The notes under the pieces were generated by a model. That model had not been told where the DNA came from, did not search any database, and saw only the letters and a program-made list of their open reading frames with translations. A stretch of DNA of 64,000 nt from Pontibacillus sp. HMF3514 (GTDB lineage Bacteria > Bacillota > Bacilli > Bacillales > BH030062), in contig NZ_CP047393.1 of assembly GCF_009858175.1 (NCBI RefSeq), positions 1,860,001 to 1,924,000 on the forward strand, written 5' to 3'. The position numbers and the translations under genes were made by a program. Positions 838 to 44,758 of this stretch are shown here, piece by piece; the stretch's first letter is position 1; every line of letters starts with the position of its first letter.

Positions 838-1112
838 GACATCTAGCTCCACCGCCCAGCAACGAAGGGGCTTGGGCCCACACGACGTGAGTCAGATCGA
901 CGTTGTCACAGGACGTGACGAACTTGGGGTCACACGATGTGGGTCAGATCGGCGTTGTCACAGGACGTGACGAACTTAGCCGATCATCCTTTTTACTTTC
1001 TCCGTTCGATAAGTCAACATCAAATTGCTTCACAATTTGTGTTTCCTTTATCTCACTACGGGCTCAGTCCAGTCCCTTCGTTGCTAAACGGACGGATTCG
1101 CTTTTGTTAATT
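838..1112. repeat. Intergenic repeat family D, copy 1 (contains a tandem insert)
   Basis: Starts with CTAGCTCCACCGCCCAGCAA and ends with the inverted partner CAGTCCCTTCGTTGCTAAAC. Shared internal blocks are TTCGATAAGTCAACATCAAA and GGGCTCAGTCC. The same framework occurs near 26776-26921 and 40612-40882. This copy is longer because a 52-base tandem duplication (879-982) replaces the segment that reads CTTCCCTCGCC in the other copies. It fills most of the kbl-miaB gap and has no supported gene. Confidence 0.85.
879..982 (-). repeat. Tandem pair of 52-bp two-hairpin modules (family C) inside repeat D1
   Basis: Two units, 879-930 and 931-982, both running CACACGAyGTGrGTCAGATC, then GTTGTCACAGGACGTGACGA. 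On the minus strand each has a hairpin TCAC-gtcc-tGTGA and a second CACrTCGTGTG-type hairpin. The same two-hairpin plan is inserted at 21042-21117 and 44581-44657. Confidence 0.75.
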
Positions 1113-20578: not shown

Positions 20579-21216
20579 TAAAGCCCCCTTATCTGGAAGA
20601 CTTGAAATTGAGATAAAGTGAGAGGAGTCCGTTGCTTTCGTGAGAGTAAGGGGTTCAGTGAAACGGCGATACTCCTGTGGAAGACCGTCCGAGCCTCCTC
20701 ACTCACTTCGTTCCCTGCGGGGTCTCGGCCGCCCTTTCTACCACTGGAGTTCGCCGTTTCCTTCACCCCTTTGCTAATATGTAGATTAACGGACCCATGG
20801 CTGAATTCACTTAATTTCTTGCTTAAGGAAAAAATGATTTTAGATACTAAACCCCTTTACATATAAGGCTTTAGATTACTTTGATGCATATATGATTTAA
20901 CCACAAATCATAAATAAGAAAACCTTACAATAGCTGCGGTTACGTTAATCTCAATAACGCCAAGGTGGGCTGTGGAACGGGTTGACTCCTCCGGTAGAAA
21001 GGGCGAGCGAGATCCCGCAGGAACGAAGTGACGAGGAAGCTGTAAAATAAACAAGGAAGTTCGACTAAGAGCGCTACATCCTGTAGCAACATCGAACGAC
21101 CCCACGTCGTGTGGGGCCGGGGAAAGCAACCCGTTCCACAGCCCGCCGCACTGCACTATAGTAACGGAACCACTCTGCACTAGCTTATTCCAGATAACTG
21201 CCAGATAACTGAATAA
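20579..21216. repeat. Paired hairpin element, locus 2 (type B plus, type A minus with insert)
   Basis: Left end AAGCCCCCTTATCTGGAAGA. Type B hairpin 20660-20760 has arms GAAACGGCGAtACTCC / GGAGTtCGCCGTTTC. The interior (20780-20950) is AT-rich and unlike the interior at loci 1, 4 and 5. Type A hairpin 20964-21147 has perfect 21-bp arms (20964-20984 with 21127-21147) and is enlarged by the module at 21042-21117. Right end CCAGATAACTGAATAA. The ynzC-tkt gap is otherwise empty of genes. Confidence 0.88.
21042..21117 (+). repeat. Family C two-hairpin module inside the type A hairpin of locus 2
   Basis: GTTCGA (21059-21064) pairs with TCGAAC (21092-21097), enclosing CTACA-tcc-TGTAG (21074-21086). 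CCCCAC-gtcgt-GTGGGG (21100-21116) follows. It replaces about 11 bases present in the equivalent hairpin at locus 5. Confidence 0.8.
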
Positions 21217-27420: not shown

Positions 27421-27517
27421 TGGCGGGACTGTGTGGGAATCGAACCCACCAGAGACGGCACGCGCCTCTCAAACGGTTTTGAAGACCGCGGGGGACACCA
27501 GTACCCCATCCAGCCCC
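27421..27517 (-). tRNA. selC: Selenocysteine tRNA, tRNA-Sec(UCA)
   Basis: 97 bases read 27517 to 27421. Acceptor GGGGCUG pairs with CAGUCCC, followed by discriminator G and encoded CCA. The extended D arm has GGGG/CCCC. Anticodon stem CGGU/ACCG carries the loop CUUCAAA, anticodon UCA (plus-strand TGA at 27480-27482). The long variable arm is GAGAGGC / GCCGUCUC, and the T arm is GUGGG-UUCGAUU-CCCAC. The oversized variable arm plus UCA anticodon identify tRNA-Sec. It is charged with Ser, converted by SelA and delivered by SelB, both encoded within 7 kb. Confidence 0.96.
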
Positions 27518-27534
27518 ATAGAATCGACATGAAT

Positions 27535-27563
27535 ATTATAAATTCTTTTTCATATAATGACAA
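27535..27563 (-). promoter_or_regulatory. Promoter of the tRNA-Sec gene
   Basis: Minus strand: -35 TTGTCA (27563-27558), 17-base spacer, -10 TATAAT (27540-27535), 18 bases before the tRNA 5' end. Confidence 0.8.
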
Positions 27564-27697
27564 GGAAAGGTGAATAAAACTGCATTTTTACATGTTTTTT
27601 AATCTTTTTCACGATTTTTTGATGCCTTTTCTTGAAGAAAGTTAATTTTGTGGGATAAAATGTTAGTATGTGTTGCATAGGTGAGGGGGTGGCAAGG

Positions 27698-28831
27698 ATG
27701 GAAGATAAATCTAAACGACCTAGCAATAGCAACTTAAAATATGAATCTATAAATCAAGAAGATTATATCGGATCCATCCATACGCTGGGAGAAATGCCTG
27801 GTGTATTTCATGATTGGATTGACCAATACGGGTTTGACTTCATCTGTGTATGTGACACAAGAGGAAACATCCTTTATGCATCTTCTTCCGCCAAACGACT
27901 TCTCGGATATGAACCAGACGATCTTACTGGAGAGAGATCTATTGATTTTTGTTCTCCTCAAGATCGGGAGAAGTTAATCAGTACATTTATGAATCAAAAT
28001 AATAAAGCAACCACTTTTGATCTGCAGATAAGACAAAAAAGCGGAAAGTACATTTGGGTAGAGACAATTGCTTCTCATGTAGAAGACCCAAATACAAAAA
28101 ATGATGTTATTTTGGCGATTACTCGGGATATATCTGATAAAAAAGAAGCGGAAGAGATGATGATTCGATCTGAAAAAATGTCTGTTGCAGGGCAACTAGC
28201 AGCAGGTATTGCACATGAAATTCGAAATCCATTAACGTCCTTAAAAGGATTCTTACAGCTCATACAAGCTGGAATTGATGGAAAAGAAGAATATTATACG
28301 ATTATGAACGAGGAAATTGAAAAAATCGAAACCATAACATCAGAGCTTCTATTTATTTCGAAACCTATGACAAATGATCGTAGAAAAGAATCTATTATTA
28401 CGATGTTACAGGATGTTTGTACCTTATTACGCTCCCAAGCGAAATTACATAATATTGATCTGGTACTGAACTATGAGGAAAATGAAGTGATCGATTGTGA
28501 CCGTTCTCAAATTAAACAGGTTTTTATTAACTTAATTAAAAACGCTGTGGAAGTTATGGAGGATGGTGGTCGTATAACAGTTGACGTAGAGTCTGATGAA
28601 GACAATGTGTGGGTCGATGTAGCTGATGAAGGCCCAGGGATTCCAAAGCACCTTGTCGATAAAATTAAAGAGCCATTCTTCACCACAAAAAAGAATGGGA
28701 CAGGGCTGGGCTTAATGATCACGAACCAAATCCTTGAAAAGCATGAAGGTGGTTTAAATGTCTATGATAACGAACCAACAGGCAGTGTTTTTCGAGTCCA
28801 ATTGCCTAGAGAAGTCTCAAAGGCTAATTAG
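27698..28831 (+). CDS. PAS-domain sensor histidine kinase, sporulation-kinase type
   Basis: Soluble kinase, 377 residues from the ATG at 27698, which follows GAGGGGGTGGCAAGG; an earlier in-frame ATG lacks such a site. One PAS/PAC domain (about 40-150: GFDFICVCDTRGNILYASSS) comes before HisKA with His173 in AAGIAHEIRNPLTSLKGFLQ. The HATPase domain shows INLIKNAVEVM, DEGPGIP and GTGLGLMI. The H-box resembles KinA/KinE-type kinases feeding the Spo0A phosphorelay. No response regulator is adjacent, which fits an orphan kinase of that kind. It lies between selC and selB. Confidence 0.85.
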   Translation: MEDKSKRPSNSNLKYESINQEDYIGSIHTLGEMPGVFHDWIDQYGFDFICVCDTRGNILYASSSAKRLLGYEPDDLTGERSIDFCSPQDREKLISTFMNQNNKATTFDLQIRQKSGKYIWVETIASHVEDPNTKNDVILAITRDISDKKEAEEMMIRSEKMSVAGQLAAGIAHEIRNPLTSLKGFLQLIQAGIDGKEEYYTIMNEEIEKIETITSELLFISKPMTNDRRKESIITMLQDVCTLLRSQAKLHNIDLVLNYEENEVIDCDRSQIKQVFINLIKNAVEVMEDGGRITVDVESDEDNVWVDVADEGPGIPKHLVDKIKEPFFTTKKNGTGLGLMITNQILEKHEGGLNVYDNEPTGSVFRVQLPREVSKAN

Positions 28832-28869
28832 CACACTTTAATGGTTTTATATGATGTAGAACCATATAT

Positions 28870-28906
28870 GAAATCCTACCTCTATTGAAAAGGTAGGATT
28901 TTTTAC
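28870..28906 (+). terminator. Terminator after the PAS kinase
   Basis: AAATCCTACC / GGTAGGATTT stem followed by TTT. Confidence 0.85.
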
Positions 28907-28956
28907 ATGACAAGAAAAATGGTATATGTTCATAGAAACAAAAAAGGAGGGTCCCA

Positions 28957-29322
28957 ATGTTATCCTATCAACAAAGAGAAATGATTGTAGAATATGTATT
29001 TGATCAGTTTATGATTACATATCCTGAGTTATCTGTGATGTATGATGAAGAGAGACTAGCACATATCAAAAAAGACACGTATCACCATTTAGATCATTTG
29101 GAATCAGCCATTTCTGCTGGAATGAAGTCGATTTATTTCGATTACATTCAATGGACCGATAGAGTTCTCACATCTAGAGGTATTGGTACTGAACTTTTAG
29201 TAGATTGTTTAAAATGGATGGAAAAAGGTATTACTCTTGAAAAAGATATAGAAAATCTCTATCAATATCAAAGCATGTTAAAAGAGTCTATTTCTTATTT
29301 AAAGGAAAGAACAACTGGATAG
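28957..29322 (+). CDS. Helical protein of unknown function directly upstream of selB
   Basis: 121 residues, predicted all-helical. A visible pattern is YHHLDHLESAISAGMKSIYF then DYIQWTDRVLTSRGIGTELL. This loosely resembles the helical N-terminal modules found before B12-binding or RsbR-type regulatory domains, but here no second domain follows. I cannot name the family. AAAAGGAGGGTCCC precedes the ATG. It ends 18 bases before selB with no terminator between, so the two are probably cotranscribed. Confidence 0.75.
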   Translation: MLSYQQREMIVEYVFDQFMITYPELSVMYDEERLAHIKKDTYHHLDHLESAISAGMKSIYFDYIQWTDRVLTSRGIGTELLVDCLKWMEKGITLEKDIENLYQYQSMLKESISYLKERTTG

Positions 29323-29340
29323 AAGGAAGGTCGTTCATTT

Positions 29341-31224
29341 ATGGATCAGAAATACTTTACAATCGGTATGGCAGGGCATATTGATCATGGTAAAACATCA
29401 TTAACAAAAGCCTTAACGAAAATTGATACAGATCGGCTAAAAGAAGAAAAGGAACGAAGTATATCAATTGAGTTAGGGTTTGCGCCTTTAAAGCTACCAA
29501 ATAGCACGTTAAATGTATCGATAGTAGACGTACCTGGTCATGAAAAGTTTATTCGACAAATGATTGCTGGTGTAGCTGGGATTGATTTGGTACTTGTTAC
29601 AGTTGCTGCTGACGAAGGTGTGATGCCACAAACGAAAGAACATATGGACATATTAAACTTATTAGAAGTTCATCAAGCCATTATCGTGATAACCAAAATA
29701 GATCGAGTAGATGAAGAAATGTTGGAATTGGTGAAAGATGATATTGATCACCACATTCAAAAAACGTCTTTTGCAACTGCACCTATCGTACAAGTAGATA
29801 GTATCTCTGAAAAAGGACTAGATGAGCTTAAAATTCATATCGAAGAGTTTTTACTAAGCTTACAACCTAGAAATGAAAGTGGAGCATTTAGATTGCCAAT
29901 TGATCAGGTTTTTACTGTAAAAGGACAAGGTACTGTTATTCGTGGGACCGTCTATGATGGTACTGTAGAAGAGGAAGAAACATTAAAAGTGCTTCCATTA
30001 GGGCATGCATGTCGAGCCAGACAAATTCAAGTACATAATAGAGAAGTAATAAAAGCTCGTGCTGGACAGCGGACAGCAATTAACTTGGGTGGAGTTGAAA
30101 ATGATGAGCTTAAAAGGGGAGATGTACTCGTCCGAGATGATACCTATCCAGTAACAAACACGATTGATGTGACACTTCATTTTATTGGAAACTTATCTTC
30201 TTCACTAAAACAACGTGGCCAAGTTAAACTACACATAGGGACGAGCGAGGTTATGGGGCGTATCGTATTTTTTGATCGTAACGAGATTATCCATAATCCA
30301 GGAGAGATCGTATGCCAGATTCGTTTGGAAGAACCGATCGTTACTCAACGAGGAGACCGGTTTATTATTAGAAGACCAAGTCCTGTAGAGACAATTGGTG
30401 GAGGGTGGATACTGGATCCTCACGGAGAAAAGTACAGATTCGGACAAGAGACCATCTCCATGCTCGAAAAGAAACGGGAAGGCACACCAGAAGAAAGAAT
30501 AGAAGATGTTCTAGAAGAAGCACACTGGTTAACAATAGAGCAATTGAAGGATCAAACCGGTTTGCAGCATGATGAGTTAGAAGGATGTTTACAAGCTATG
30601 TTGGAAGATAACATTGTTTATTTTTCTCCTTATTATAGCCTGAAGCGGATCATGCAAAAGGTTGAATCAAATGTAACAACATATCTTCATCAGTTTCATG
30701 AGGAATTTCCGATGAGAAACGGAGCTAACAAGCCTGATGTTATGAATGTAGCTGGTGTTAATTCTAAATTATTTGATAGGTTATTAGAACAATGGGAGCA
30801 AGCACGGCTTATCCAGAAAGATGGTCGTTTTATAGCGCTTCATTCTTTTACCCCTCATATACCGCAAAAGTGGGAAAAGAGGATACAGAATGCGCTTGAT
30901 TCCCTTAAACAGGATGGATTGAAGCCGAATCCATTTGAGGAATATTTGAATCAAGAAGGCGTTCCAAAAGATATAAATGATGAGCTAGAAGGATTCCTTA
31001 TAGAGCAAAGTATAGTCGTTCGTTTAGATGACAAGCACCTGCTAGATTTAAAAGTGTTGGATCGTGCCATCGAGACCCTAAAAAATAACACAAATCAATC
31101 TTTCAGTTTGAAAGAAGCAAAAGATGTCTGGGGCGTATCAAGAAAATATTTAATACCACTTTTAGAAGTAATAGATGAAAAAGCAATAACAAAACGAGTA
31201 AATGACAAGAGAGAATGGCTCTAA
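29341..31224 (+). CDS. selB: Selenocysteine-specific elongation factor SelB
   Basis: GTPase that carries Sec-tRNA-Sec to the ribosome and binds the SECIS hairpin through its C-terminal winged helices. G1 is GHIDHGKTSL, the switch region RLKEEKERSISIELGFAPL replaces the EF-Tu type, G3 is DVPGHEKF and G4 TKID. Domains II-III follow, then about 260 residues of winged-helix repeats (for example ERIEDVLEEAHWLTIEQLKD). 627 residues, the normal SelB size. Convergent with selD across a shared terminator. Confidence 0.97.
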   Translation: MDQKYFTIGMAGHIDHGKTSLTKALTKIDTDRLKEEKERSISIELGFAPLKLPNSTLNVSIVDVPGHEKFIRQMIAGVAGIDLVLVTVAADEGVMPQTKEHMDILNLLEVHQAIIVITKIDRVDEEMLELVKDDIDHHIQKTSFATAPIVQVDSISEKGLDELKIHIEEFLLSLQPRNESGAFRLPIDQVFTVKGQGTVIRGTVYDGTVEEEETLKVLPLGHACRARQIQVHNREVIKARAGQRTAINLGGVENDELKRGDVLVRDDTYPVTNTIDVTLHFIGNLSSSLKQRGQVKLHIGTSEVMGRIVFFDRNEIIHNPGEIVCQIRLEEPIVTQRGDRFIIRRPSPVETIGGGWILDPHGEKYRFGQETISMLEKKREGTPEERIEDVLEEAHWLTIEQLKDQTGLQHDELEGCLQAMLEDNIVYFSPYYSLKRIMQKVESNVTTYLHQFHEEFPMRNGANKPDVMNVAGVNSKLFDRLLEQWEQARLIQKDGRFIALHSFTPHIPQKWEKRIQNALDSLKQDGLKPNPFEEYLNQEGVPKDINDELEGFLIEQSIVVRLDDKHLLDLKVLDRAIETLKNNTNQSFSLKEAKDVWGVSRKYLIPLLEVIDEKAITKRVNDKREWL

Positions 31225-31227
31225 AAG

Positions 31228-31262
31228 AAAGCCGCTTGGATAATTTCCAAGCGGCTTCTAAT
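31228..31262. terminator. Bidirectional terminator between selB and selD
   Basis: GCCGCTTGGA / TCCAAGCGGC perfect stem, A-rich on the left and TTCTAA on the right. Confidence 0.8.
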
Positions 31263-31271
31263 ATTATTTGA

Positions 31272-32324
31272 TTAATCAACATAAATAAGCTTGTCTTGCT
31301 TTTCAACTACTTTCCCAATAATCGTAGCCTCACGAATTTCCTCATTTTTTAGCTTTTGAATATATTGTTTAGCTTCCTCTTCAGGCATTGAAACGAGTAA
31401 ACCTCCTGAAGTAATCGCATCACAAAGAATCAATTGATCGATATCCGTTAAAGAGTCATCATAGATTACATCTTCTTTTAACCAGGTGTGATTTTTCTTT
31501 GATCCACCGGGGATGACACCATCTTTAGCAAGTTCCTTAGTACCAGGAAGTACTGGGATATCTTGATAATGAAAATGAAGAGACACATCACTTGCTCGGG
31601 CAATTTCACTACCGTGACCTAATAAACCAAAACCAGTTACGTCTGTTACTGCATGAACCTCAAAGTCATGAAGAGCTTCAGATGCTTTTTGGTTTAATTC
31701 GGACATAACAATAGACACGTCGTTGATTTGCCCCTTAGTGAGCTTCTCACGCTTAATTCCGGTAGTTTGGATGCCAACGCCTATTGGCTTTGTTAAAACC
31801 AGTACATCCCCTGTCTGTGCACCTGCATTTGTATATATACGTTCAGGGTGAACAAGCCCAGTAACAGATAAACCGAATTTAGGCTCTTGGTCATCGATAG
31901 AATGTCCACCGACAATAACCCCACCAGCTTCATGAACTTTATCCTGTGCACCTTGAAGAATTTGTCCTAACAATTCTGGGCCCAATTTTTTTATTGGGTA
32001 ACCTACTATATTTAGTGCTGTTTTGACTTCTCCGCCCATAGCATACACATCACTGAGGGCATTTGCCGCTGATATTTGACCGAACATGTATGGGTCATCC
32101 ACAATCGGTGTAAAATAATCAAGTGTTTGAATCATCGCTAACTCATCTGTTAATCGATATACACCAGCATCATCAGAGGTGTCGTGACCTACTAATAAAT
32201 TGGAGTCTTGTTTACTATTTTCTACGTGACGCAAAACTTGCGTCAGGTCATCAGGACCTAATTTGCATCCTCAACCAGCTTTTGTAGACAATGTTGTTAG
32301 ACGGATTTTTTCTTCTTGTGTCAT
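31272..32324 (-). CDS. selD: Selenophosphate synthetase SelD, itself a selenoprotein (Sec18)
   Basis: Makes selenophosphate from selenide and ATP for SelA. The ordinary frame starts only at 32234, but it continues upstream through one TGA (32273-32271) to ATG 32324, which has AAGGAGGTG before it. The product then begins MTQEEKIRLTTLSTKAG-U-GCKLGPDDL. The TGA falls at the catalytic Cys/Sec position of the family (usually GCGCK or GUGCK). 350 residues including Sec18. Later HDTSDDAGVYRL, SDVYAMGG and GGHSIDDQEPKFGLSVTG match SelD. A perfect 8-bp hairpin 25 bases past the TGA is the probable SECIS. Confidence 0.95.
32227..32245 (-). promoter_or_regulatory. Probable SECIS hairpin in selD
   Basis: In the selD message TGACGCAA-GTT-TTGCGTCA: perfect 8-bp stem, triloop GTT, starting 25 bases after the TGA codon. 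The same triloop occurs in the hairpin after the other in-frame TGA at 32507-32521. Confidence 0.8.
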
Positions 32325-32368
32325 GGTTCAGCACCTCCTTCTCTCTAGTCTAGTGTACAAAAAATTTC

Positions 32369-32419
32369 TATATACATGAAGTATGTTATTTTGCAAAAAG
32401 AAGAAATGTTCAATACAAT
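32369..32419. promoter_or_regulatory. Overlapping divergent promoters for selD and the selW-like gene
   Basis: TTGCAA at 32391-32396 is its own reverse complement. Rightward: TTGCAA, 17 bases, TACAAT (32414-32419). Leftward: TTGCAA, 16 bases, TATATA (32374-32369). Both promoters could use the same six bases as -35. Confidence 0.6.
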
Positions 32420-32451
32420 AAATTATATATAGTTAATAAGGAGGATGTTGT

Positions 32452-32685
32452 ATGACGTATAAGGTATCCATAGAATTCTGCATGAAGTGAAACTATGCAC
32501 CTAAAGCTGCGAGTTTCGCAGAAAACATGTTTTCGCATTTCCGTCATGACATTGAAGAATTAACCTTAGTTCCAAGTAGCGGAGGGGCTTTTGAGGTTAC
32601 TGTTAATGGAGAGAAGATTTACTCTAAGCTCGATACAGGTGAATTTCCGAATGAGAAAGAACTTTTCTCTAAAATGAGTACTTAA
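32452..32685 (+). CDS. SelW/Rdx-family selenoprotein with CxxU motif (in-frame TGA)
   Basis: 77 residues if TGA 32488-32490 is read as Sec13. The product begins MTYKVSIEFCMK-U-NYAPKA and then runs ASFAENMFSHFRHDIEELTL, PSSGGAFEVTVNGEKIYSKL, TGEFPNEKELFSKMS. C10xxU13 after a first beta strand, the mid GGAFEV-NG-Y-KL pattern and the G-FP C-terminal block are those of the thioredoxin-like SelW/Rdx redox family. GGAGGATG lies before the ATG. A perfect hairpin starts 16 bases past the TGA. The only selenoprotein seen here apart from SelD. Client redox partner unknown. Confidence 0.92.
32507..32521 (+). promoter_or_regulatory. Probable SECIS hairpin in the selW-like gene
   Basis: CTGCGA-GTT-TCGCAG: perfect 6-bp stem with GTT triloop, 16 bases after the TGA. 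Loop sequence identical to the selD hairpin although the stems differ. Confidence 0.8.
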
Positions 32686-32698
32686 CGAAGGGTAACCG

Positions 32699-32730
32699 AT
32701 GCATATCCGGAAAAGGGTATGCATTTTTTT
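32699..32730 (+). terminator. Terminator or attenuator between selW-like gene and selA
   Basis: ATGCATA / TATGCAT stem followed by TTTTTTTAT, 14 bases past the selW-like stop and 32 before selA. No separate selA promoter is obvious, so it may set a lower selA level. Confidence 0.75.
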
Positions 32731-32761
32731 ATACTAGACAGATCAAGAAAGGAGGAAAAAC

Positions 32762-34168
32762 ATGCAAAAGTTTTTAAGAAATATCCCACCAATACATGAG
32801 TTGCAAAATCATATAAAAGTAAGACAAATACAAGAAAAATTTTACGTAAATAACAATCAACTAACATCCTTTTTACAACAAGAAACAAACGCTCTTCGAA
32901 ATGATATTTTAACTGGCCATTGGAAGCCTGAACATGAAAATGGGATAGAAGAAGAGATCCTCTCACGTGTTTATAGAACCATCCAACAATGGAATACACC
33001 AAATTTAAAGCGTGTTATAAATGCTACCGGTACGATATTACATACCAATTTAGGGCGTGCACGATTAAGTGAAGAAGCTGTGAAAAGAGTTGTGGAAGTC
33101 GCAAGTCACTATTCAAACTTAGAATATAATTTAGAACAGGGGACAAGAGGTTCAAGGCACGATATCGTTGAAGACTTGATTATGGAGTTAACGGGTGCTG
33201 AAGCGGCCATGGTTGTGAATAATAATGCTGCTGCAGTGTACATGATCTTAACAGCTTTCGCTAAAAATCAAAATGTGGTTGTATCAAGAGGAGAACTTGT
33301 TGAGATTGGTGGAAGTTTTCGCGTGTCATCGATCATGGAAGAGAGTGGGGCAGGACTAGTTGAAGTTGGTACCACGAATAAGACACATCTTTTTGATTAT
33401 GAGAATGCAATTGATGAAGAGACCGCTATGCTAATGAAAGTACATACAAGTAATTTTAAAATTCTAGGCTTCACTCAGTCAGTGGATCGGGAGTCGTTAG
33501 TTCAACTCGCTCAAGAAAATGAGAAGCTGTATTATGAAGATTTAGGTAGTGGTGCGCTCCATGCTTTTCATGAAGAAGGTATAGGGGAAGAGCCAGTCGT
33601 TCGAAAAATTTTAAATGAGGGAGCTCACCTAGTTTCTTTTAGTGGTGATAAATTACTAGGGGGGCCACAGGCAGGTATCATTGCTGGGAAGAAATCATAT
33701 ATTGATCGCTTAAAAAAACATCAATTAGCTCGTGTACTTCGTGTAGATAAAATGACATTGGCAGCATTAGAGGGAACGTTTAAACAATATGCAAAGAGAG
33801 AAGAAAATCAGATACCTGTTATTCGTGACTTAAGAAAATCACAAGGAGATATTCAAGAACAAGCTCGACAGTTTATTGAACGTGTAGGAGAATTAGAACA
33901 TTTTAAGTTAAGTGTCATCGATTCTGAAGCTCAAGTAGGAGGAGGCACAATGCCAGAAGTACTTATTCCTTCCGCAGGAGTTGCTTTAACAGAGAAATCT
34001 GTCAGTGCTGAAAAGATTGAACAAAAGCTTAGGAAGCATGAACCAAGTGTGATCACGCGATACTACAATGAACAGCTTTTCATCGATTTTCGAACACTGA
34101 CAGAGGAAGAACAATCAGAATTGGTTTACATTGTTAAGTCGATTGACCAACAATTACAAATCGTGTGA
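32762..34168 (+). CDS. selA: L-seryl-tRNA(Sec) selenium transferase SelA
   Basis: PLP enzyme that converts Ser-tRNA-Sec to Sec-tRNA-Sec with selenophosphate; a large ring-shaped homodecamer in other bacteria. The expected PLP Lys297 is in [31 protein letters not shown] and [17 protein letters not shown] are further family marks. 468 residues, the usual length. AAGGAGGAAAAAC precedes the ATG. Its last 15 bases overlap the end of sspP on the other strand. Confidence 0.97.
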
Positions 34169-34371: not shown

Positions 34372-34425
34372 ATTTCTACTCACTACATAAACTAGGTGCA
34401 TCAACATGAAGGAGTGAGTAGAAAT
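34372..34425 (+). promoter_or_regulatory. Hairpin covering the start of the 34424 gene
   Basis: ATTTCTACTCACT (34372-34384) is exactly complementary to AGTGAGTAGAAAT (34413-34425). The right arm includes the end of the ribosome site AAGGAG and the first two bases of the ATG, so a message starting upstream would hide its own start. Confidence 0.65.
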
Positions 34426-34684
34426 GCCACATCATAAAAATAAACAACAGGCATTCCAAGCTGCTCAACAAGGGTATGAGCAAGCTGAAAAAGCTAATAA
34501 ACAACGTATTGAAGCCATTAATCGAGCGGACTATGGAAAAGAATTAGGTCACCTGACACAAGAGGTCAATGAAGCCTATCAACAAATCGATAAAGCACTA
34601 AGTGTTGCAAGTGAACACCAGGAAAAGCAGCTAAAGCAATACCAAGAAAAATTAAATCAAATTATGTCTGAGCTTGAAGAATAA
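34424..34684 (+). CDS. Small coiled-coil protein of unknown function, spore-region neighbour
   Basis: 86 residues, strongly helical, rich in Gln/Glu/Lys (HKNKQQAFQAAQQGYEQAEK through to the end QIMSELEE). It is not Tlp, which is at 40309. It sits between sspP and sspO, so a late sporulation role is plausible but unproven. AAGGAG precedes the ATG and the start is enclosed in a 13-bp hairpin. A terminator shared with sspO follows. Confidence 0.75.
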   Translation: MPHHKNKQQAFQAAQQGYEQAEKANKQRIEAINRADYGKELGHLTQEVNEAYQQIDKALSVASEHQEKQLKQYQEKLNQIMSELEE

Positions 34685-44088: not shown

Positions 44089-44758
44089 ATGGCAGTAATA
44101 TGGAATAACTGTTTTAGTGAGATAGGCGGTTCCGTTGCTATTGTGGAGTGCGGTGGGCTTGGGAACGGATTGCTTTCCCCGGACGAACGATCGAGCCTCC
44201 TCATCCGCTACGCTTCTTGCGGGGTCTCGCTCGCCCGTTTTTCCGGAGGAGTCAACCCGTTCCCAAGCCCACCTTAGCCGAATGGTGATTAACGGAACCG
44301 CAGAGATAATGTGAGGAAATGCTTGAGGACATTTATTCCGTTATTTGCATCAAATCACCTTGAAAAACCCCAATTTGTCACAAATAAGGTACCATATGTC
44401 CGTAACGACTCTCGAAATGCCTTAAAAGTTCAAAATAACGGAATAAATGTCCGTAAGGTTTAGAACTCACACATTAGGGTCCGTTATTCTTCATAAACGC
44501 AAAGGGGGGAAGGAAACGGCAAACTCCAGTGGTAGAAAGGGCAGATGAGACCCCACAGAGAACGGAGTGAACGAGGAGGCTGAAAGTAAATAATGAAGAT
44601 CGACTAAGACCGCCACATCGTGTGGCAACGTCGACCTACCCCACGTCGTGTGGGGCAGCAGGAGTATTGCCGTTTCACTGACCCCCTTACTCTCATACAA
44701 GCAACGGACTCCTCCGAACCTATATCTCGAATCCAAGTCTTCCACATAAGGGGGCTAT
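44089..44758. repeat. Paired hairpin element, locus 4 (type A plus, type B minus with insert)
   Basis: Left end TTATATGGCAGTAATATGGA. Type A hairpin 44152-44273 is almost identical to locus 1, with one arm mismatch (GGATTG for GGGTTG). The interior module 44320-44500 is shared with loci 1 and 5. Type B hairpin 44513-44676 is enlarged by the module at 44581-44657. Right end CCACATAAGGGGGCT. Over 900 bases lie between yneQ and the next gene; no gene supported. Confidence 0.88.
44581..44657 (+). repeat. Family C two-hairpin module inside the type B hairpin of locus 4
   Basis: CGAC (44601-44604) with GTCG (44630-44633) encloses CCACA-tcg-TGTGG (44613-44625). CCCCAC-gtcgt-GTGGGG (44639-44655) follows. 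It replaces about 15 bases of the uninterrupted hairpin at locus 1. Confidence 0.8.

Follow-up and report, generated by a model that had tools for sequence, protein, structure and literature searches.

Interchange of cysteine (Cys) and selenocysteine (Sec) is usual within selenoprotein families. As described in PMC1794560, selA, selB, and selC form an operon with fdhA in some Proteobacteria, and the same source names SelD and FdhA as the most widespread selenoproteins. For SelW-like proteins, the GOS table in PMC2398784 gives 427 Sec forms and 56 Cys homologues.

The Pontibacillus locus analysed here, which lies in a window of 64,000 nt (the whole stretch of DNA examined), resembles the bacterial Sec-decoding trait in combining SelA, SelB, SelC, and SelD, all above curated cut-offs, with UGA/bSECIS target genes. 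Its SelD carries Sec within GUGCK of the catalytic loop, with no difference seen from other Sec-containing SelD proteins, and its SelW-like protein shares the CxxU motif and the Rdx family with known SelW-like/Rdx selenoproteins. The layout differs from the selA-selB-selC-fdhA operon of some Proteobacteria and from the loci of Clostridia, where selD-selA-selB mostly lie together, away from yneK/acnA neighbours. No description of a syntenic Bacillales Sec locus, or of a Sec-only SelW in this order, was found in the literature searched, which was without most subscription papers and supplements, so that this absence is no proof of novelty.

Architecture of the locus

The sel genes are arranged in the order selC, selB, selD, selW, and selA, flanked by yneK and acnA (Table 1). 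The identities of the flanking yneK (DUF2621), SspP, SspO, and AcnA were confirmed with family models, with SspP above the Pfam cut-off but below that of NCBIfam (51.3 vs 63). As the preliminary description of this DNA had reported, tRNA-Sec(UCA), SelB, SelD, and SelA are all intact, exceeding curated cut-offs (ARAGORN, Rfam, NCBIfam), and two genes of the locus, selD and the SelW-like gene, carry one in-frame TGA each at the catalytic position. The same description had treated the interval 27421-34168 as a Sec island; this holds for the sel genes, whereas the kinase and the 121-aa ORF within it are residents of the site.

Table 1. Features of the Sec locus, with positions in the window.
Feature	Position	Strand	Basis or remark
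selC, tRNA-Sec, anticodon UCA, 3' CCA encoded	27421..27517	-	ARAGORN and Rfam RF01852
Candidate selC promoter, TTGTCA-17-TATAAT	27535..27563	-	Consensus scan; ends 17 nt before selC
PAS histidine kinase	27668..28831	+	Pfam PAS/HisKA/HATPase_c; resident, outside the Sec system
121-aa ORF, resident of the site	28957..29322	+	No Pfam or NCBIfam match
selB, Sec-specific elongation factor, C-terminal winged helices	29341..31224	+	TIGR00475; Pfam SelB-wing_2, SelB-wing_3
selD, selenophosphate synthetase, Sec18	31272..32324	-	TIGR00476; UGA 32273-32271
selD bSECIS hairpin, stem GACGCAA/TTGCGTC, apical GUU	32228..32244	-	Pair conservation and codon shuffles
selW-like, Rdx family, CxxU	32452..32685	+	PF10262, TIGR02174; UGA 32488-32490
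selW bSECIS hairpin, stem CTGCGA/TCGCAG, apical GUU	32507..32521	+	Pair conservation and codon shuffles
selA, selenocysteine synthase	32762..34168	+	TIGR00474

selC scored 68 bits against RF01852 (gathering score 47), and of 19 genome matches listed it alone exceeded the cut-off; its single-strand fold was -43.8 kcal/mol (z -1.9). Its identity was 99% in P. marinus and 87-89% in two sister-family loci, and blastn gave no match at the same locus in seven Sec-less relatives. The candidate selC promoter, with 11 of 12 consensus matches, ranked first among 20 promoter-like sites in the region; shuffles predict 24.0 such sites, so the candidate is not functional evidence. Among the proteins, SelB reached 358 bits (TIGR00475, cut-off 242) and has a winged-helix (bSECIS-binding) domain at its C-terminus, SelA 558 bits (TIGR00474, cut-off 268), and SelD 412 bits (TIGR00476, cut-off 125). 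The SelW-like protein reached 82 bits against Pfam Rdx (PF10262, cut-off 22.6) and was also above the cut-off of TIGR02174.

UGA codons and downstream hairpins

In selD, which encodes 350 aa, the in-frame UGA is codon 18, in the motif GUGCK, and that of selW is codon 13, the last position of CMKU (residues 10-13) in a protein of 77 aa. In homologues from 41 fetched loci, which were selected because selA was present, the UGA stood at the same residue in 35/35 readable SelD and 36/36 SelW sequences.

The hairpins downstream of both UGA codons are conserved beyond codon choice. The selD hairpin begins 29 nt past the U of the UGA and kept 249 of 252 pair cells across 36 sequences, a value reached by none of 5000 synonymous-codon shuffles (mean 227.5, max 237); its single-sequence fold had a z of -2.1. 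The selW hairpin begins 19 nt past the U and kept all 222 pair cells across 37 sequences, with compensatory changes present (shuffle mean 207.4, max 213; 0/5000 reached 222). Counting against it, the isolated 60-nt stretch has a different minimum-energy fold (z -1.3).

Further UGA genes and other uses of selenium

The locus had been described as encoding its own users, which is correct for SelD and the SelW-like protein but incomplete: two more UGA redox genes, each matched by a UGA orthologue in P. marinus, lie outside the window, far off in the chromosome. The first is ResA-like and has its best NCBIfam match in NF041054 (124 bits, below the cut-off of 300); the two share Sec as the first residue of UxxC, and the motif reads WASWURC rather than WAxxUGC. 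The second, a SelL-related peroxiredoxin-like gene with UPxC, has its best match in NF040769 (101 bits, below the cut-off of 120), again with Sec first in UxxC. One product is estimated at 189 aa and the other at about 255 aa; the start of the ResA-like gene is provisional. The hairpins of both are predicted folds only. Across the seven Sec-less relatives, TGA was present in 0/83 PF00578 matches.

A genome-wide scan for the shared hairpin core gave 14 matches, and the reversed pattern gave 13. When a UGA was sought 8-45 nt upstream, convincing in-frame codons turned up for selD and selW alone; one short read-through frame (L205) was attributed to chance. The scan missed both distant UGA genes, whose hairpins differ, and is therefore no census. 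Formate dehydrogenase (FdhA) was rejected as a hidden user, with three matches in the genome (two above the cut-off) and none with an internal stop; a full-length UGA FdhA was found in at least 5 of 40 other selA genomes among the matches listed. Selenouridine as a second use of SelD was likewise rejected, as ybbB/selU (TIGR03167) was above the cut-off in 0/9 family genomes, with weak partial matches. A SelL-like candidate in another genome (G009, L226) has a translation that reads glutathione-peroxidase-like and was set aside as not orthologous. Candidate read-through ORFs at the loci of relatives were mostly close to frame ends.

Distribution across the family and the order

selA was above the cut-off in 181 of 397 sampled Bacillales genomes, for which 'scattered', the word of the preliminary description, is too weak, and in 2 of 9 family genomes. 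Disabling sel mutations in close relatives, a possibility that had also been raised, were not seen; the other 7 of the 9 family genomes had no selA above the cut-off, and no sel remnants were detected at the locus in these seven.

Cross-tabulation of selA and SelW over the 397 genomes gave 165 with both, 16 with selA only, 0 with SelW only, and 216 with neither; SelW thus occurred in 165/181 selA genomes and in 0/216 genomes without selA. Exactly one TGA was present in each of the 150 SelW matches listed, of 165, in contrast to the GOS table with its Cys homologues. One SelW-like match, on a Cytobacillus plasmid, had no gene in the annotation table searched, which is incomplete.

Evolutionary history of the locus

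The sel genes lay on one stretch with acnA in 38 of 41 loci across the order (selected for selA), and yneK, the 86-aa ORF, sspO, or acnA was nearby in 52 of 80 named loci. Two sister-family loci also carry selC between yneK and the kinase. When the locus was compared among relatives with conserved flanks, as had been proposed, the sel genes were indeed absent in 7/9 family genomes, but the interval did not behave as one unit: the absence comprised two separate segments, and the genes between them remained in 6 of the 7 Sec-less genomes. The kinase was at the same position in 6/7, and homologues of the 121-aa ORF (39-49%) were present in 6/7, with none detected at the P. marinus locus.

The concatenated Sel tree, built from the 31 of 46 rows with all four proteins, and the acnA tree both recovered the same four-row clade, which in the Sel tree had a support of 99 (93 after re-rooting). 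Alkalibacillus salilacus formed a very long branch (2.49) in the concatenated Sel tree. In the SelA-only tree of 80 rows (the window plus 79 of 80 loci, with the P. marinus SelA row left out), the window adjoined Sutcliffiella (93, unstarred) and not Alkalibacillus.

The best reading is that of an ancestral locus that was probably lost repeatedly, and it is very likely that this bacterial Sec-decoding locus works and has been passed down vertically in its ancestral position. Of the two histories that had been offered, block gain or retention, retention is supported, and block gain is not, given the acnA synteny, the position of selC in the two sister-family loci, the shared clade, and flank-like dS.

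An improbable alternative is that the family ancestor lost the trait and that the lineage of the window and P. marinus acquired it anew at that site, through homologous recombination with a relative, for instance Alkalibacillus. On the family tree, early loss followed by one regain amounts to two changes, and retention with 2-3 losses needs at least as many; the flanks are also conserved enough to recombine. Compatible with regain, SelB and SelD resembled several other families at least as much as they did sister-family locus L063, and for SelA the edge of L063 was marginal (57% vs at most 56%). However, recombination would have had to reinstate selC and selB-selA on either side of a kinase and a 121-aa ORF that belong to the family itself, as well as the two unlinked UGA user genes. 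The kinase, moreover, follows the species (97% to P. marinus and 55% to L063).

Recent horizontal entry of the island into the Pontibacillus chromosome as one block is very unlikely, even with selA above the cut-off in just 2/9 family genomes, a SelA-only tree that separates the window from Alkalibacillus, and precedents for the movement of entire Sec pathways described in PMC1794560 and PMC5029168. The same neighbourhood is in use across the order, the local clade of the concatenated Sel tree is that of acnA, and the two further user genes are distant in the chromosome. The interval is not a single inserted block, since two of its genes are residents whose homologues occupy this position in Sec-less relatives. 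The dS of the sel genes against P. marinus (0.43-0.51) lay within that of the flanks (0.12-0.90).

Against P. marinus, the dN/dS of the sel genes was 0.07-0.19 (0.19 for SelA), higher than that of the flanks (0.01-0.06), and the Sel proteins evolve faster. That the locus is decaying, with UGA acting as a stop and selD and selW yielding only short or internally started products, is extremely improbable: these dN/dS values and the absence of the trait from many relatives would fit decay, but dN/dS is far below 1, the frames are open across the full family models, UGA was replaced in 0/35 SelD and 0/36 SelW homologues, the hairpins are maintained, and the tRNA is intact. Judging from the sequences, all four factors, the UGA codons, and the hairpins are undamaged and subject to purifying selection.

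Proposed function and implications

Family membership suggests that SelD would make selenophosphate, SerRS would charge tRNA-Sec with serine, and SelA would convert the Ser-charged tRNA-Sec to Sec-tRNA, which SelB-GTP would bring to UGA codons that have a short downstream hairpin carrying GUU at its apex. Because the active site of SelD needs Sec, the product of the system would feed back into it. The SelW-like CxxU protein would be the user kept within the locus, and at least two further users, the ResA-like UxxC protein and the SelL-related UPxC peroxiredoxin-like protein, would be encoded elsewhere. The whole system is missing in most congeners, where it was presumably lost, with selC and selB-selD-selW-selA gone at two sites and the intervening genes mostly staying.

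With these results, the 'scattered trait' becomes a history that can be tested, with one conserved neighbourhood across sporeformers, many absences, and a small selenoprotein family, SelW-like, with no Cys form seen in the order (150 matches listed of 165). The UGA genes found here are likely to be shortened or overlooked in annotation, as for the Cytobacillus plasmid match. Since Pontibacillus comprises congeners that carry the trait and others that lack it, how far Sec matters to a salt-loving sporeformer is directly measurable. We tentatively suggest, as a possibility we consider somewhat less probable than its opposite, that the Sec trait in Bacillales may be an old, vertically kept locus whose persistence depends mainly on a SelW-like protein unable to work with Cys, so that where the machinery was lost, SelW would have been lost too and not changed to Cys. 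If true, the presence of the locus would indicate a redox function that only Sec can fulfil and that has repeatedly been given up among sporeformers.

Sec-decoding genes and conserved UGA codons

The window (G000:C1:1860001-1924000), from a host genome of 3.98 Mb in a single contig, contains a complete Sec-decoding system. SelB, SelD, SelA, and a SelW-like protein each scored above the curated family-model cut-off, with open frames covering the full length of the models, and selD and selW each contained one internal UGA translated as Sec (motifs KAGUGCK and FCMKUNY, respectively). Together with the tRNA match, this confirmed all of the components named in the preliminary description: tRNA-Sec, SelB, SelD, SelA, and two genes with in-frame TGA. 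A candidate selC promoter (11/12 consensus matches) ends 17 nt upstream of selC; promoter-like sites were not rarer in shuffled sequence (20 found vs 24.0 expected).

Features located in the window and elsewhere in its genome (G000)
Feature	Position	Strand	Evidence
tRNA-Sec(UCA), selC	window 27421-27517	-	Rfam 68 bits, cut-off 47
121-aa small conserved ORF	window 28957-29322		no Pfam match over cut-off
86-aa small conserved ORF	window 34424-34684		no Pfam match over cut-off
ResA-like UGA gene, motif WASWURC	G000:C1:1098015-1098350	+	best model NF041054, under cut-off
SelL-related UGA gene, motif HLGUPVCR	G000:C1:3718235-3718516	-	best model NF040769, under cut-off
Bacillaceae-1 RNA	window 929-995	-	RF01690
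Bacillaceae-1 RNA	window 21049-21115	+	RF01690
Bacillaceae-1 RNA	window 44588-44654	+	RF01690

Homologues were read at 41 loci (L025, L063-L102) of the order, a Bacillales group named Caryophanales at NCBI, chosen for having selA. The UGA occupied the same residue in 35/35 readable SelD copies, leaving out five loci without SelD in the stretch and one with unknown bases at the site, and in 36/36 SelW copies, five loci having no SelW in the stretch. Bacterial SECIS hairpins with an apical GUU spanned nt 20-34 (selW) and nt 30-46 (selD) from the U of UGA. Pairing was kept in 222/222 pair cells for selW (37 sequences) and 249/252 for selD (36 sequences), with compensatory changes in both, and none of 5,000 synonymous-codon shuffles within columns equalled the observed pairing (maxima of 213 and 237, respectively). 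Folded alone, the window selD stretch retained its hairpin (z -2.1); the selW stretch favoured a different structure (z -1.3), which counts against its hairpin.

Selenoproteins of the genome and the order

Rdx/SelW was present in 165 of the 397 sampled order genomes, all selA-positive; SelW without selA occurred in none, and selA without SelW in 16 (G016, G052, G061, G067, G109, G131, G189, G213, G229, G256, G274, G292, G305, G319, G334, and G373). All 150 SelW matches listed, of 165, had exactly one TGA, and the UGA was seen at fetched loci for four of the 15 outside the list (G035, G049, G157, and G328). No Rdx protein of any kind was found in the seven family genomes lacking selA over the cut-off (Sec-less). 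Of these 16, only G109 had a UGA formate dehydrogenase of full length among the matches listed. In G016, a partial match to this enzyme (G016:C108:3864-4286) contains an in-frame TAG and may be a pseudogene. On a Cytobacillus spongiae plasmid, a SelW-like match (NZ_CP089998.1:370650-370868, 64% identity) has no gene annotated in the PLSDB gene table, which is incomplete; it may have been overlooked owing to a putative in-frame UGA.

Formate dehydrogenase is the commonest Sec user elsewhere (67/75 Sec organisms; PMC1794560, section 8); it is no Sec protein in the window genome, where its three matches contained no stop. Two of the 17 AhpC-TSA (PF00578) matches had one TGA each, compared with 0/83 in the seven Sec-less genomes. 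Under the standard code, these ResA-like and SelL-related genes (L220 and L221) yield ORFs only 3' of the UGA, of 213 and 142 aa. Both have UGA orthologues in Pontibacillus marinus (ResA-like: 97% identity, dS 0.30, dN 0.018; SelL-related: 90% identity, dS 0.31, dN 0.047). The sister-family genome G009 has a ResA-like orthologue with UGA, and no SelL-like orthologue was found there. In both Pontibacillus genomes, the sequence 3' of these UGAs is predicted to fold into a hairpin whose loop is AGUU; the G009 copy differs. The island encodes its own users as proposed, namely SelD and the SelW-like protein, but two further UGA genes lie outside the window. The genome encodes at least four selenoproteins, a minimum because only FdhA, AhpC-TSA, and Rdx were searched.

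No component of the system is new in kind: PMC2398784 lists selenoproteins of the SelW-like, SelD, and UxxC Trx/Prx-like types, and Table 2 of PMC1794560 gives three selenoprotein families and three selenoproteins for Firmicutes/Bacillales. No description of an order-wide syntenic Sec locus or of strict SelW-selA nesting was found in the literature searched, which covered few subscription journals.

Distribution and history of the locus

selA exceeded the cut-off in 181 of the 397 order genomes and in two of the nine family genomes; a closely similar locus occurs in P. marinus DSM 16465 (L119). The sel genes and acnA lay in one stretch of ≤18 kb at 38 of the 41 order loci (exceptions L072, L078, and L079), usually with sspO and the 86-aa ORF. 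Across 80 named loci, 52 had at least one of yneK, the 86-aa ORF, sspO, or acnA in the stretch; these neighbours were missing at Clostridia, Paenibacillaceae, Planococcus-type, and several other loci, with some contigs ending early. The window shares its selC-kinase-selB order with L063 (G009) and L174 (Alkalibacillus salilacus), both from a sister family. Trees of concatenated SelA, SelB, and SelD and of acnA (31 rows) both recovered these two with the window and P. marinus (support 99 and 100, both starred; Sel value 93 after re-rooting), with a Pearson correlation of 0.62 between path lengths. L174 formed a very long branch in the concatenated tree, and in the SelA-only tree the window adjoined Sutcliffiella (93, unstarred), both of which count against vertical descent. 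Between the window and P. marinus, dS was 0.43-0.51 for the four sel genes (flanks 0.12-0.90) and dN/dS was 0.07-0.19 (flanks 0.01-0.06).

The locus was also taken from the eight other family genomes, seven of them Sec-less. Two separate segments, selC and selB-selD-selW-selA, are absent from the Sec-less relatives. The histidine kinase and 121-aa ORF are residents of the site, since they occur at the same place in 6/7 Sec-less genomes (both missing from G002); the 86-aa ORF occurs in 7/7 and at many order loci. In those six genomes, the yneK-kinase gap was 237-257 nt (vs 316 in the window) and the distance between the 121-aa and 86-aa ORFs was 329-596 nt (vs 5102); in G002, yneK to the 86-aa ORF measured 580 nt. 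At the seven Sec-less loci, no remnants of sel proteins (tblastn, E 1e-3) or selC (blastn, 7-base words) were found.

The best reading of these sequence comparisons is that the sel locus is ancestral and was lost repeatedly, with two to three losses within the family on the flank-gene tree. One early loss followed by one regain is as short on that tree and stands as a rival reading. Retention in the lineage, one alternative of the preliminary description, agrees with the shared acnA neighbourhood and the local Sel/acnA clade agreement; its other alternative, gain as a block, is opposed by the resident genes between the two absent segments. Disabled sel genes in close relatives, which it had envisaged as contrary evidence, were not seen; no sel sequence was found at the locus in the seven Sec-less relatives.

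Other loci carry extra genes between selB and selD (including L064, L065, L066, L067, L068, L070, L098, L099, L100, and L101): a GT4 glycosyltransferase at 15/41 order loci and PhnC-, PhnD-, and PhnE-type transporter genes at 12/41 each. The L099 binding protein best matched a general phosphonate model (putative selenate model TIGR04553, 164 bits, cut-off 250), and relatives of the L083 GT4 include the GPMC-system and SenB selenosugar enzymes, with scores below the cut-offs. A LysR protein occurred at seven loci, and the L082 copy scored above the cut-off for NF040786, a selenium-associated model. From their sequences, these genes could serve to take up selenium and to form a selenosugar branch; none of them lies at the selB-selD position in the window. 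The window's three Bacillaceae-1 RNAs scored 66-73 bits.

Proposed function

The factors are intact, the UGAs and hairpins conserved, and the locus under purifying selection. By the known pathway, SelD would produce selenophosphate, SelA would form Sec-tRNA, and SelB would bring it to the UGA and bSECIS. By analogy with its family, SelW would act in thiol/selenol redox. The SelD active site itself has Sec, and the system therefore would depend on its own product.
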